DNA from: Globomyces pollinis-pini
Lineage: Eukaryota > Chytridiomycota > Chytridiomycetes > Rhizophydiales > Globomycetaceae
Reading direction: 5' to 3'
NCBI GenBank assembly: GCA_025399215.1
Contig: MU621107.1
Span: 1-64,000, forward strand
DNA: 64,000 bases
The notes below the pieces were generated by a model. It did no database searches, was not told the DNA's origin, and saw only the letters and a program-made list of their open reading frames with translations. Numbering within the stretch: position 1 is the stretch's first letter; each line of letters starts with the position of its first letter. The translations under genes were made by a program, and so were the position numbers. Shown here one piece after another: positions 10,539 to 59,405 of the stretch.

Positions 10539-11879
10539 ATGACAGACTTTCAAGGAATACCCCATTCACAGAAACAGAAGAGAAGAGAGGAGAGAGTGAG
10601 AGAATATCAATTATTTCGATTCATTGACAATCATAAAGGATTCAATTTGGATTCCGTTAAAAATGTATATTCCAACTTATTTTGATTCTACTGATAGGTA
10701 TTTACCAAACAATAATTTAATTCCAATTTTAAATTAGGAAATTAACAATATTTACCAAACTGGAAATTATTTTAAATTGTTCAATTTCGATCAAACTTAC
10801 TTTCCTTCTTATGAACATAGGCAATTGCGGCATTTATTGAGTTGTCCAAAACCTTCTAATGTTATATATACTCATTTCAATACTGTTAATTGTTGGAATT
10901 CTTTCACAAATACCCATACAGTTTTACTGGATTTACATGATCAAGTGGCATGTAGTAGAATAACTAGCATATCTGCTCTAAATGATCTTTTGGTGATCGG
11001 AGGTATTGAATTTATGGATTAAATCTGAATTGGTTAGGTTTCAGTGCAGATTTCTTATTAAAACGTTTGGATGCTTCAGATGAACCCATCATAAATGGTA
11101 CTATTGCTGATAGTTCCAGAGCAATTACAAACCACCTCAAACTCTCAAACTCTAGAAACAGAGGTATAATCTTTTGTAGTTTACGAACTGTAGGTCCTCA
11201 GTGCATCGTATCCAGTAATGACGACAAGCTACGTATTGTAGATTTGGAAAGATTGAAAACTATCAATGAATTTTCATTGTCTTGGGCGCCAAATGTAAAT
11301 GAATTGATTGATAATGTGTAGTGTTCAACACAAAGTCCTGATGGTCGGTTAATATGTGTAGTGGGAGACAGCAATGATTCTTTATTAATTGCCCCCGAAT
11401 CAGGAAAATGTAGATGAATGATCTTCTAAACTGTTGATGTAGGTGTAGGAAAGTTAACTGGTCACTGTGATTATACATTTGCCTGTGATTGGTTATCCTC
11501 CGGAAATGTGATTGCTACAGGCGGTCAAGATATGACCACCAGACTTTATGATACCAGAAGGATGGGGAGTCCCTTTTTTGTGTTTCAAGCAACAATGGGC
11601 CCTGTGAGGTCCTTAACATTCAGTCCTGATGGACAATTTCTGCTCATGGCTGAATCAGCAGACTACATTCAAGTGATTGATATGAAAAGATTGGAGAATC
11701 CTCAGGTATTTGATTTCTTTGGTGAGATTTCTGGTACAAGTTGGAGTCCAAATAGTGATGTTTTTTATGTAGGAAATTCTGGTAAAATGTCTTTTCGCAA
11801 ACTAAACTTAGCACCGAGATATGGCGGTATAATTGAGTATAAGAAGAGAAATATAATTCACGAATATGGTCTTATCTAA
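10539..11879 (+). CDS. WD40-repeat protein
   Basis: A 390-residue protein (introns 73, 35, 27 and 33 nt; spliced length divisible by three). The N-terminus MTDFQGIPHSQKQKRREERV and the block CPKPSNVIYTHFNTVNCWNSF resemble an uncharacterised family of fungal and plant WD40 proteins. WD repeats follow: VSSNDDKLRIVDLERLK, GHCDYTFACDWLSSGNVIA followed by GGQDMTTRLYDTRRM, and SLTFSPDGQFLLMAESADY. No catalytic domain is present, so it is probably a scaffold with unknown partners. The first intron is a two-unit tandem intron, listed separately; ATG 10539 is needed to read into the next exon in frame. Confidence 0.75.
10665..10737 (+). other. two-unit tandem intron (33 + 40 nt) in the WD40 gene
   Basis: The 73-nt intron splits into two complete GT-AG units. 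The first ends CTACTGATAG and the second starts GTATTTACC immediately after. Removing both keeps the frame from SVKN into EINNIYQTG. Removing only one introduces stops. Confidence 0.75.
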
Positions 11880-31169: not shown

Positions 31170-31379
31170 NNNNNNNNNNNNNNNNNNNNNNNNNNNNNNN
31201 NNNNNNNNNNNNNNNNNNNNNNNNNNNNNNNNNNNNNNNNNNNNNNNNNNNNNNNNNNNNNNNNNNNNNNNNNNNNNNNNNNNNNNNNNNNNNNNNNNNN
31301 NNNNNNNNNNNNNNNNNNNNNNNNNNNNNNNNNNNNNNNNNNNNNNNNNNNNNNNNNNNNNNNNNNNNNNNNNNNNNNN
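31170..31379. other. assembly gap (210 N)
   Basis: A run of N that removes the 5' part of the CorA gene and its promoter. Its true length is unknown; frames drawn across it are meaningless. Confidence 0.99.
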
Positions 31380-32153: not shown

Positions 32154-33246
32154 ATGTCACTAAATCAAGGTAACAATCATCAAATAGTCTAATTGAATAG
32201 GTATAGAATTTGATATTGATATATAGGTATGTATCGTAGATTAGTATTTATTTAAAGGTTGGTGTTCATCTGGTTAATTTCTTAGGTATTCAACCATTTG
32301 AAGTTAAACGATAGGTATACATTATCGTTTCTCATCATCAGCTGTTACTTTATGTGAGCAATTACGAAAAGAATTCGCAAATCCAAATCAAAATGACAAA
32401 ACCATCAAGACTTTGAAAGAATTAAAATTATTATTGGCAAATTTGGGATTATTATTACCAAACACTAAAGACCAAAAAGAATTATTACTAGTTCGAGAAA
32501 CGATTGAAATGGGAGCTTTATTGGCTGTCAGAACTCACGATGTGAACGCATTTGAGAGATATATTGCACAACTATTCACATTTTACAGAGATTATAAGTA
32601 ACATCGTGATGATTGTGATTTACATTAGAAATGCTATTCCGGAATCTCCTCGTATGTATATGCTGTTAGGATTGAATCTACTTCGATTATTATCTCAAAC
32701 TAGACTCTCTGAGTTTCACACTCTACTAGAAACCATTGGATCAACAAATCTAAAGAATTTGTATATTCAACATCCTGTTCAAATCGAACAAGCATTAATG
32801 GAAGGTTCTTACAACAAGGTTTGCTCAAATGGTTTAACACTTAGGTTCATACTGTATTTTAACTGTCAAGGTTTGGAATTCCAAAATCAATGTCCCCGCT
32901 CCAGAATACAGCTTTTTCATGGATACGTTGATGGGAACTATCAGGTAACACCGGCGTTGTTTTGAATTTCAGAAACGAAATCGCCAGCTGTAGTGAAAGA
33001 GCATATGAGTATCTCCCCCTTGCAGATGCATCTACCCTTCTCTACTTGGAAAATCAAGACCAAATGCTATCCTTTTGCCAACAGGTATGGTTGGGTTTGT
33101 GCTGAAATTAGCGTGGTTGGAATGTAGATTTAAAAACATCAAGAATTAATTTTGTTTCTGGTGACGCAACTGGCCACTTTATCCCTACTCATGACGTTAT
33201 TCACAATGTGTTATCTTATGCCCAAGAGTTGGAGCGAATTGTCTAA
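32154..33246 (+). CDS. RPN12: 26S proteasome regulatory subunit RPN12 (PSMD8)
   Basis: A 260-residue protein; the spliced length is divisible by three with introns of 172, 31, 52, 28 and 27 nt. The first exon encodes only MSLNQ plus one base. The protein continues [19 protein letters not shown], with [34 protein letters not shown], then the PCI region [40 protein letters not shown] and finally [23 protein letters not shown]12 is a lid subunit that helps join lid and base. The 172- and 52-nt introns are tandem arrays of mini-introns, listed separately. Confidence 0.9.
32170..32341 (+). other. six-unit tandem mini-intron array in RPN12
   Basis: Six abutting GT-AG units: 32170-32200 (31 nt), 32201-32226 (26), 32227-32257 (31), 32258-32285 (28), 32286-32314 (29) and 32315-32341 (27). 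Each of the five internal borders is AG|GT with no base between units. Every unit has the length of an ordinary intron of this genome. Removing all 172 nt joins the G of exon 1 to CT of exon 2 (Ala) and keeps the RPN12 frame. Confidence 0.85.
32819..32870 (+). other. two-unit tandem mini-intron (26 + 26 nt) in RPN12
   Basis: Units 32819-32844 and 32845-32870 each run GT to AG and meet at TTAG|GTTC. Splicing out both joins SYNK to [13 protein letters not shown], the conserved RPN12 sequence. Confidence 0.8.
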
Positions 33247-57115: not shown

Positions 57116-59405
57116 ATGGCCGATACAAAAAATCAACCAGTTCAAGTACTAGTTCGTATTCGACCAAACAGTGGAACATCTTGTCTTTCGGTTCTCTCAG
57201 ATTGTCAGATTGATGTAAAGAATCCTCGCAATGCCAACGAAACAATCACATATTCGTAATGCTAATCTTGTTTTATATTTTATAGATTCAACAAAGTTTT
57301 TAACCAGCAATCTAAGCAGGTAAGATGATGATTAGATTAATACTTTATTAGTCGGATGTGTTTTCACAAATTGTACCCATAATTGATGAAGTTATCAAAG
57401 GTAGAAATGCTACAAGTATCAGCGTATTTACATTGAATATTAGTATTTGCATATGGACAAACTGGCTCTGGTATAAGTTTCTATATTCTGAATAACAACA
57501 GGGAAAACTCATACAATGAATGGATCAGATTTAGATAACGATCCAGGAATTATTCCAAGAACAATTGAAACACTGTTAGAATTAAAGGCAAAGAATAAAA
57601 GCACCACAATTGAAGCGTCCTATCTCGAAATTTACAACGAAAAGATATTCGACTTACTGGACACAACAACCAGAACGGTTTATCAGAACTACAACTAATT
57701 GATATATAGAAACCGAACACTTTAGAGCTTAGGGAAACAGCAGGAAAAGAAATTGTAGTATCCGGAATCACAACTGTATCTATATCAACCATCAACGACT
57801 TTAAAAAATACCATCAGTTAATATGCATATCCTAACGTTCTCAGAACAGCGTTAAATAAGCGCTCCACTGCATCTACAAATTTAAATGAGCATTCTTCCA
57901 GATCACATTTCATTTTACAACTTTTGGTTTTATATTTTTCACTCTTATTCTTTAGATAAAGACCACCTCTGAAAACAGAAAAAGTAGACTTAGTTCAAAA
58001 CTTCATTTGATTGATTTGGTACGCATTGATAGATTAACCACTTTGTGTTCGTAGGCAGGAAGCGAAGACAACAAAAGAACAGGTATTGCTTTGAAATTTA
58101 ATTTAACTTCATGAATAGGTAAGCAACATTCACTCATTTTAAGGAAACTCTGGTGCAAGAATGAATGAAAGTTGTGCTATCAATAAATCTCTATTTGTTT
58201 TGGGACAGGTAATAGTATTACTTTGATATAACATAAATAGGTTGTAGAAGGTATGCAGCATTTTATTGTTTAACGTCAAAGGTAACGACACGTTTGCTTA
58301 ATTTTAGGTCTGAATAAAAACAACAGTAGGATTCCCTATCGGCAAGCTGAATTATTATTTTAATAATAGTGATTCCAAAGTCACGCGATTTTTACAGGAT
58401 TCACTTGGTGGTAATGCGATTGGTCTTATGATTGCTTGCTGCTCTCCGACGGAAGTAACAGTACCACGTTTAATTTACTATTAGGAAAATTATGTTGACA
58501 CATACAACACGTTAAATTTTGCTACAAAGTCTTCTCTGATTAAAAATGTGGTGCAAGTTAATGAAATCATCAGTTAATTATTGCTTTATTGATTCTATTA
58601 GTTAAGAAAGATGATACAAATTCCAGAAAAGATGCGCTAAAAGAATGGAGGTCGAAGCAGAAAAAACCATCGTTACCACCTCCGAAGCGTGCTCGAAGAA
58701 GCGATGAATCCAGAATTTCTGCAGTTTCCATTGATTCAAGTTATGAAAATGATGACAGTCGTCTGTCTGGTGAATTTTTACACTCTAAACAACTCCCGAA
58801 AAGAGTTAAGTCCAGCAACACGGAGCAAAATATGTCTATCAATTCAATGCTGCAGTTGCTGCTTCCAACACTAGCAGAGCAAGTGCAAGAGCGAATTTGT
58901 CCACAATTAAATGATATTAATCAAAGGCTGAACAAAGTAGAGAGTAAAGCACCACTAAAGAAACAAAACACCATGTAAATTTAGTCCTTAACAATTAGTG
59001 GTTCAATATCCTCCACAGATCAACAAATGTACGCTCTTTTGTTCCATTAACTTTCAAATTAGTTTAAAGCAAAAACTACAAATTGTGAATAGGAAGCTTT
59101 TAAAAACAAGCGACAAAGAGAATACATCATTAGAGCCCTCATCATCAAACCCAAAAGCTACCAGTGAAATAAATCATGTTGACCAGTTGAAAGAATCAAC
59201 CACAAAATCCTTGCTAGAATTGATCAACAATGGAACCTTAAAAGATTTAATGAAAATGAAAATGATTGGCAAGAAACGTGCAGAAGCAATTTTGGAATCT
59301 AGAACGCTTAATGGTCAGTTTGAGACCCTATCTGATTTGAGTCGCGCAAAGCTATCTGAATCCCAAATATCAAGCATATTTAGAGTATGTATACTTAAGT
59401 TGTAA
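57116..59405 (+). CDS. KIF22: kinesin-10 (KIF22/Kid-like) with C-terminal hairpin-helix DNA-binding motif
   Basis: A true kinesin with the motor at the N-terminus. It shows QPVQVLVRIRPNSGTS, the P-loop FAYGQTGSGKTHTMNG, SYLEIYNEKIFDLL, switch I NEHSSRSHF, switch II HLIDLAGSED, YRDSKVTRFLQDSLGGNA and NTLNFATKSSLIKN. A basic, Ser-rich middle follows (WRSKQKKPSLPPPKRARRSD). The C-terminus has LLELINNGTLKDLMKMKMIG, KKRAEAILESR, then LSRAKLSESQISSIF, a helix-hairpin-helix fold as in KIF22. Such kinesins push chromosome arms along spindle microtubules. At least 14 short introns occur, including two tandem introns, a 10-nt exon and one GC-AG intron. Confidence 0.88.
58083..58143 (+). other. two-unit tandem mini-intron (36 + 25 nt) in kinesin-10
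   Basis: Units 58083-58118 and 58119-58143 meet at AATAG|GTAAG. Removing both joins NKRTG to NSGARMNESCAINKSL, the conserved kinesin sequence after switch II. Confidence 0.8.
58241..58307 (+). other. 10-nt micro-exon followed by a two-unit tandem mini-intron (31 + 26 nt)
   Basis: Exon GTTGTAGAAG (58241-58250) lies between a 32-nt intron (58209-58240) and two abutting units, 58251-58281 and 58282-58307, that meet at AAAG|GTAAC. The result reads LGQVVEGLNKNNSRIPYR, matching kinesins. Confidence 0.75.
58342..58369 (+). other. 28-nt GC-AG intron in kinesin-10
   Basis: A GCAAG donor and TAATAG acceptor are needed to join IPYR to DSKVTRFLQDSLGG, the invariant kinesin motif. No GT donor gives this frame. 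It is the only GC-AG intron I found in the window. Confidence 0.75.

Follow-up and report, generated by a model that had tools for sequence, protein, structure and literature searches.

A 172-nt stretch at the beginning of the RPN12 gene of Globomyces pollinis-pini reads as six complete ultrashort introns of the U2 type chained end to end, separated by exons of zero length, and this chain appears to be one of some hundreds in the genome; we assign this reading a probability of roughly 0.7. G. pollinis-pini is a rhizophydialean chytrid, whose assembly of 18.5 Mb consists of 459 contigs. Its genome was credited to Amses et al. (2022) in the accessible part of a 2026 paper (PMC13391722). The window, which is the whole 64-kb stretch of DNA analyzed in this study, is located on contig C18.

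The six-unit array of RPN12

The gene product matched PSMD8/RPN12 structures across almost its full length, and its best protein match (97%, 269 aa) was the deposited RPN12 model P0001 of G. pollinis-pini. The following RPN12 features were identified:

32154..32169, + strand: exon 1 (MSLNQ, phase 1), 16 nt; from the sequence and homologue alignment
32170..32200, + strand: six-unit array, unit 1, 31 nt, GTAACA...AATAG with a branch-like CTAAT; splice-site score at the 42nd percentile of single introns
32201..32226, + strand: six-unit array, unit 2, 26 nt; splice-site score at the 40th percentile of single introns
32227..32257, + strand: six-unit array, unit 3, 31 nt; splice-site score at the 71st percentile of single introns
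32258..32285, + strand: six-unit array, unit 4, 28 nt, GTTG start; splice-site score at the 21st percentile of single introns
32286..32314, + strand: six-unit array, unit 5, 29 nt; splice-site score at the 81st percentile of single introns
32315..32341, + strand: six-unit array, unit 6, 27 nt, in frame and stop-free; splice-site score at the 31st percentile of single introns, and homology
32342..32597, + strand: exon 2; gene finder and homologue alignment
32598..32628, + strand: single intron, 31 nt; gene finder and homology
32819..32844, + strand: second array, unit 1, 26 nt; gene finder and homology
32845..32870, + strand: second array, unit 2, 26 nt, weak score at the 1st percentile of single introns; gene finder and homology
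32945..32972, + strand: single intron, 28 nt; gene model
33085..33111, + strand: single intron, 27 nt; gene model, which ends at 33246

The six-unit array is preceded by ATGTCACTAAATCAAG of exon 1 and followed by CTGTTACTTTATG, and exon 2 opens with CTGTTACT. The first-pass annotation had described six GT...AG units of 31, 26, 31, 28, 29 and 27 nt with zero bases between them at 32170-32341, and this arrangement was reproduced letter for letter. Its statement that the units have the size of a normal intron in this genome also held, as the 617 single introns of at most 40 nt identified in this study averaged 28.5 nt (sd 2.9). There was exactly one decomposition of the 172 nt into units of 22–40 nt. 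The five AG|GT borders had been judged very unlikely to arise by chance; consistent with this, dinucleotide shuffling of the array interior gave no decomposable sequence in 20,000 trials. Among 1499 other 172-nt GT..AG stretches in a 264-kb sample of the genome, the only one that decomposed overlaps the array of a SEN1-like gene.

The same annotation had held that the whole 172 nt must be removed to keep the RPN12 frame, which proved too strict for unit 6. Given that unit 6 is 27 nt long and has no in-frame stop, removal of units 1–5 alone (145 nt) also keeps the frame. Removal of unit 6 is indicated instead by the nine extra residues that it would encode, which were absent from all 15 other homologues aligned (15 of the 119 other homologues listed; P0004, whose N-terminus is different and longer, was left out).

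Pairwise comparison showed that no two of the six units were alike, and revealed no trace of tandem duplication in this array. DNA searches with this array and with the C68 array described below returned self-matches only, and thus no alleles or paralogues with a different number of units. The RPN12 array was also considered as a structured RNA and rejected, as its fold was only somewhat better than those of shuffles (z −1.74; 11 of 200 shuffles were as good). A scan of the 64-kb window against Rfam at gathering thresholds gave no match.

The six-unit array is no lone oddity. The second array of RPN12 (26+26 nt) interrupts N-K|V-W, in which N, V and W do not vary among 17 aligned sequences, and two more arrays are found in a KIF22-like kinesin gene of the window. 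A weaker candidate pair was found upstream:

10665..10737, + strand: weaker candidate pair, 33+40 nt, with a non-AG exon context; gene finder
58083..58118, + strand: kinesin array A, unit 1, 36 nt, within DLAGSEDNKRT|GNSGARMNES; ungapped against KIF22 (6nje_A)
58119..58143, + strand: kinesin array A, unit 2, 25 nt; gene finder and KIF22 alignment
58251..58281, + strand: kinesin array B, unit 1, 31 nt, between VVEG and LNKNNSRIPYR; KIF22 alignment
58282..58307, + strand: kinesin array B, unit 2, 26 nt; KIF22 alignment

A third unit of kinesin array B (22 nt, 58308-58329) was dropped as a gene-finder miscall beside a GC-AG intron. This 28-nt GC-AG intron (58342-58369, PYR|DSKVTR) was read by eye, and its surroundings were miscalled by the finder, which admits GT only. 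Elsewhere in the window, 210 masked bases (N, 31170-31379) adjoin a CorA-like transporter reading frame.

Ordinary introns of the genome

Introns were identified with a semi-Markov gene finder that was trained on 264 kb (the window and 20 stretches of 10 kb) and that allows any exon length, including zero. It predicted 124 genes with 667 introns, of which 652 were at most 40 nt long, with a mode of 28 nt, and 15 were longer. The short introns have the features of ultrashort U2-type introns: GT-AG ends, a narrow length peak and a branch region near the 3′ end. A YTRAY motif was located near the 3′ end in 364 of the 617 single introns, 22 of 34 array units and three of the six units of the RPN12 six-unit array. 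Stop-free short introns were under-represented at lengths of 3n (28 of 178, vs. 160 of 474 at other lengths); this was counted over the short introns, as array units were too few to include. A similar deficit of stop-free 3n introns has been reported for Paramecium.

Nine of the 15 longer introns were 57–121 nt long, could not be split into AG|GT units and were plausible by the coding scores on both flanks. The other six (≥217 nt) may be gene-merging errors. A GTAAGT start was found in four of the nine introns of 57–121 nt vs. 20 of the 652 short ones, as if long and short introns formed two classes. One member of the 57–121 nt minority is an 84-nt intron (C3:8722-8805) that looks real and lies in a gene that we take to be KAP3. 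Introns of 60–120 nt can thus probably be removed in one step in this genome, which argues against size alone forcing stepwise splicing.

Recurrence of the arrays

Beside the 617 single short introns, the 264 kb contained 12 arrays of two to six units as called by the gene finder. In addition to the six units of RPN12, there were five units in a CLK kinase gene (C1), four in the SEN1-like gene (C1), three in a gene on C2 and eight pairs. The number of zero-length exons was 23 (22 without one miscall), while exons of lengths 1–20 nt numbered 12 combined. The array units (29.7 ± 3.2 nt) were slightly longer than the single introns (28.5 ± 2.9 nt; p 0.04). In a further 70 kb, analyzed with the previously trained model, one array, a pair, was found in 139 introns, and there was one zero-length exon vs. 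four of lengths 1–20 nt. Thus, the density of the arrays is uneven.

The whole genome was searched with the two-border pattern GTAW-N18..30-WAG|GTAW-N18..30-WAG|GTA, and with controls in which one or three bases were inserted at each border. There were 134+134 matches (two strands) at spacing zero, 6+6 at spacing 1 and 12+12 at spacing 3, which corresponds to a ~22-fold and 11-fold excess, respectively. The pattern read backwards gave 59+59 matches, many of them ATG-rich, so that the excess of forward over backward matches was only 268 to 118; backward controls of the spaced patterns (27+10 and 29+44) exceeded the spaced patterns themselves. In the sample, single WAG|GTAW borders were only 1.25 times commoner at spacing zero (198) than in spaced form (158 and 157), and AGGT was not over-represented (1520 seen vs. 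1717 expected). Border frequency therefore accounts for little of the excess.

The first 100 of the 268 matches collapsed to 80 places, 12 of which had overlapping matches. This scales to about 200 places, chance ones included, and the pattern touched only four of the 13 gene-finder arrays. Extrapolation of those 13 arrays from the 334 kb examined to the full 18.5 Mb gave about 700. Thus, as a rough estimate, the genome probably contains some hundreds of arrays, most of which are pairs. Eight pattern matches, a non-random set from near the beginning of the list, were checked. The gene finder called tandem introns at three of the eight places (L034, L038 and L039) and none at the other five. 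Of these five, three were read by eye as arrays that the finder had missed: L035 with five units, L036 (Sey1) with three and L040, presumably a kinase gene, with two. L033 and L037 were ambiguous.

Removal of whole arrays

Comparisons with homologous proteins suggested that the whole arrays are removed in the cases checked, which were the RPN12, kinesin, CLK, M48 protease, SAMHD1-like and Sey1 genes. Both kinesin array junctions fell in ungapped stretches of the alignment with KIF22 (6nje_A). The five CLK units lie within FLHDL|GLIHTDLKPEN, where the alignment with six CLK-like proteins, of which five are labelled as fungal, was ungapped. In the SAMHD1-like gene, five units of 27, 32, 30, 28 and 25 nt lie within YY|VYLGATHHRFEHS, and the alignment was also ungapped. 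Similarly, the two units of the M48 protease gene left no gap at NAFVMP|NGKIFVF. The three units of Sey1 lie within GKS|TLLN, and the middle one, of 33 nt, was kept as an exon by the gene finder. As the exons of the kinesin, SAMHD1-like and Sey1 genes were spliced by hand, their alignments test the reading and are not blind discoveries. The CLK gene model on C1 also showed an eight-residue insert around TTSKLTID relative to the six aligned proteins, which is probably a missed 24-nt intron. The deposited CLK protein was not among the best 120 matches of the protein search.

Deposited protein models could be compared with relatives at three arrays. P0001 agreed with homology at the 26+26 pair of RPN12, which is removed in it. 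At the six-unit array, P0001 removes the 145 nt of units 1–5 as a single intron and reads unit 6 as coding (GIHYRFSSS). At C68, the deposited model P0241 begins within unit 2, with units 3 and 4 retained as coding sequence and units 5–6 spliced out. The relatives contradicted both models: the hydrophobic N-terminus that P0241 derives from units 3 and 4 was absent from its nearest relative P0242, as the nine residues were from the RPN12 homologues. Given this conflict at two of three arrays, protein predictions of this fungus, and perhaps of related fungi, would include errors at these positions. If P0001 and P0241 were backed by RNA, these models would themselves be evidence for use of inner borders.

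Inner splice sites and a proposed order-free removal

The 5′ and 3′ scores of 22 inner borders did not differ from those of single introns (p 0.26 and 0.55, respectively), and they were higher than those of the 1520 AGGT sites in the sample taken together (p 3e-7 and 3e-9). Since the gene finder chooses by score, its arrays are biased towards strong inner sites. The RPN12 decomposition, which is unique and was found by its reader without scores, is set against this bias; its five inner borders alone also outscored the AGGT sites (p 0.016 and 3e-4). The RPN12 units share no common sequence, so that the chain looks old, and yet none of its borders has decayed. We read such intact borders between mutually unlike units as a result of selection for use.

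Together, unit length, inner-site strength, homology and recurrence provide good support for the RPN12 units being complete introns joined AG|GT, and this part of the earlier interpretation stood. That the units are spliced one by one, in what order, and how the RPN12 chain arose is what we infer; for removal, the unit-by-unit reading is the one that we favor from the sequence. Each unit (~24–36 nt) would have a 5′ splice site, a branch region and an AG of its own and would be recognized by intron definition, as single introns are. Excision of one unit would join exon 1, or the AG of the prior unit, to the GT of the next, and this rejoining of AG and GT would regenerate a working splice site. 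With a splice site regenerated at every removal, we propose that the chain could be cleared in any order and still yield one mRNA.

Alternative explanations for the arrays

AT-rich DNA with frequent GT and AG could yield apparent chains by chance. For individual two-unit arrays, 1–19% of shuffles decomposed, as did 2.5% for the three-unit array, and chance is possible for individual pairs, such as that at 10665-10737. However, five-unit and four-unit arrays were matched by three of 20,000 shuffles each and the six-unit array by none, and the genome-wide excess at spacing zero would not be expected. Chance is refuted for the long arrays, and as a general account it is hardly credible. It is also very improbable that units 1–5 of RPN12 form an intron and that unit 6 is coding, as deposited, or optionally retained. 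Unit 6 is annotated so in P0001 and is free of stops; nevertheless, its score is that of an ordinary intron, the aligned homologues lack its residues, and the same annotation gives C68 an N-terminus missing in P0242. Finally, the first GT could be joined to the last AG in one step, the inner AG|GT borders being unused relics of intron growth, which we regard as unlikely. Introns of 57–121 nt without inner AG|GT borders are predicted between coding exons in this genome, and the deposited models cut RPN12 units 1–5 and C68 units 5–6 as single introns, both in line with one-step removal. However, unused relics should decay, whereas the diverged RPN12 units have retained borders, lengths and scores like those of single introns. 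Moreover, the GTAAGT start that is frequent in the introns of 57–121 nt was found in none of the 12 gene-finder arrays and in one (C59) of four further arrays read. Against the favored reading stand the unsplit introns of 57–121 nt, the deposited models, the Sey1 unit kept as an exon, the weak unit at 32845-32870, the sparse 70 kb, the score bias of the finder and the limited excess over the backward pattern.

With regard to origin, which is separate from and compatible with the readings above, new introns might have been inserted repeatedly and independently into one AG|GT proto-splice site, without tandem duplication. We hold this as a tentative possibility with somewhat less than even odds. 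An exonic AG|GT context was found in five of 12 arrays vs. 28 of 617 single introns (Fisher p 2e-4), adjacent units of the RPN12, CLK, C59, C4 and C5 arrays were not alike at p<0.05, and the mean within-array similarity of the gene-finder arrays as a set was not above random (P 0.16; three of 42 pairs at p<0.05). On the other hand, a mobile intron predicts a dispersed family of near-identical copies, and none was found among the 652 short introns, in which a few pairs were partly alike. Independent insertion is also at odds with the likeness of adjacent units in the genome-wide list, where 14 of 92 pairs were above the 99th percentile of random-pair similarity, with 0.9 expected, and with the outright 27-nt tandem repeat at C68.

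Origin of the arrays

Tandem duplication was most apparent at C68. In this SDR gene, six 27-nt AG|GT units at C68:15877-16038 directly follow ATGG (locus C68:15873-16038, L029:573-738). Units 2–6 differed from each other at 1–7 positions (20–26 of 27 positions alike), while unit 1 was unrelated (13–14 differences). TRF detected a 27-nt period with 5.4 copies and 86% matches. GTAAAAGA opens both the first unit and the exon that follows the array. Units 2–6 are also in frame and stop-free and would encode a hydrophobic stretch.

Although C68 contributed four of the 92 adjacent pairs and four of the 14 similar ones, and C31 two of the 14, so that not all are independent, 10 of the 14 similar pairs lie outside C68. 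At least 10 identical bases before AG were found in four of the 92 pairs. Eight listed pairs were left out of the similarity count, of which three were at p<0.05. A resemblance to a duplicated exon was visible by eye at C68 and Sey1. Such an exon-duplication signature showed no clear excess in 601 single introns, with a weak hint among the 177 introns of the AG| subset (p 0.036 on the 5′ side).

These comparisons of unit sequences provide good support for multiplication by tandem duplication at loci other than RPN12. Thus, the earlier suggestion that introns multiply was partly borne out: duplication is evident elsewhere, as at C68, and is not visible in RPN12, and the exon context would also suit insertion at AG|GT. 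A chain would grow when a unit and its AG|GT border are duplicated in tandem or, possibly, through arrival of a new intron at an AG|GT junction. Both kinds of event would be silent in the mRNA and would leave a further AG|GT target. We give even odds to a broader reading, in which these introns behave as minisatellites, the intron and its AG|GT border duplicating in tandem into chains of up to six or more, each intron excised in its own splicing round through zero-length exons. If so, intron number per site would be a repeat count that changes fast and leaves no mark on the mRNA.

Comparison with known systems

The source sequence of a gained intron is usually invisible, and intron gain is a long-standing question. 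Given that one genome appears to contain arrays at several stages, ranging from similar copies (C68) to diverged chains (RPN12), all with exactly zero spacing, multiplication of introns may be directly traceable in it. The arrays also test how the spliceosome chooses partners among six GTs and six AGs in 172 nt, and whether pure intron definition can handle zero-length exons. Among the matches listed in the open-licence literature (titles and abstract openings), no description of chains of complete mini-introns was found.

Similar to the introns of Paramecium, which have a median of about 24–25 nt and are mostly <40 nt (PMC12862383, accessible text), those described here have a narrow length peak; the host, however, is a fungus and not a ciliate. 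The accessible main text of that paper contains neither "adjacent" nor "recursive", and its two instances of "tandem" carry a different meaning. In human UBC polyubiquitin, tandem AGGT sites are usable as 5′ or 3′ splice sites (PMC10809524, in part). The UBC units are coding ubiquitin monomers, whereas the units in this study are introns absent from the protein. Different from introner elements, which are dispersed families of near-identical introns, the 652 short introns form no such family.

The arrays resemble the ratchet points of recursive splicing in Drosophila and vertebrates, in that AG and GT abut at a zero-length exon inside the removed region, as in RPN12, and in that upstream removal would regenerate the 5′ splice site. 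Known ratchet points divide long introns into segments and, in Drosophila, depend on a cryptic RS-exon (PMC8605326, in part). Here, up to six complete introns of ~25–36 nt abut, and the RPN12 array is 172 nt in total, not a very long host intron. Similar to fungal stwintrons, several introns occupy one position and may be removed consecutively. In a stwintron, a splice element of the outer intron is split by the inner one, and the outer intron becomes functional only after the inner one has been removed (PMC5639578 and PMC9024468, in part). In contrast, the units in this study are complete and lie side by side, the RPN12 decomposition is unique, and every unit is bounded by a GT and an AG that score as ordinary sites, so that no donor, branch or acceptor is split.

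The closest likeness at C68 is to introns derived from tandem duplication, which reportedly include those of Hellsten 2011. In such cases, repeated AGGT-bounded segments create or extend introns and leave the protein unchanged, according to the parts available of PMC3443670, PMC4974935 and PMC3629103. For instance, 24-nt tandem repeats are found within introns of two Schizosaccharomyces genes, where one intron spans several repeats (PMC4974935, in part). With its 27-nt units, the C68 array looks to be the outcome of such an event, and the likeness extends to the 14 similar adjacent pairs, though not to RPN12. Different from these cases, however, each repeat in G. pollinis-pini is a complete intron in length and signals, many genes are involved, and many of the arrays are no longer repetitive.
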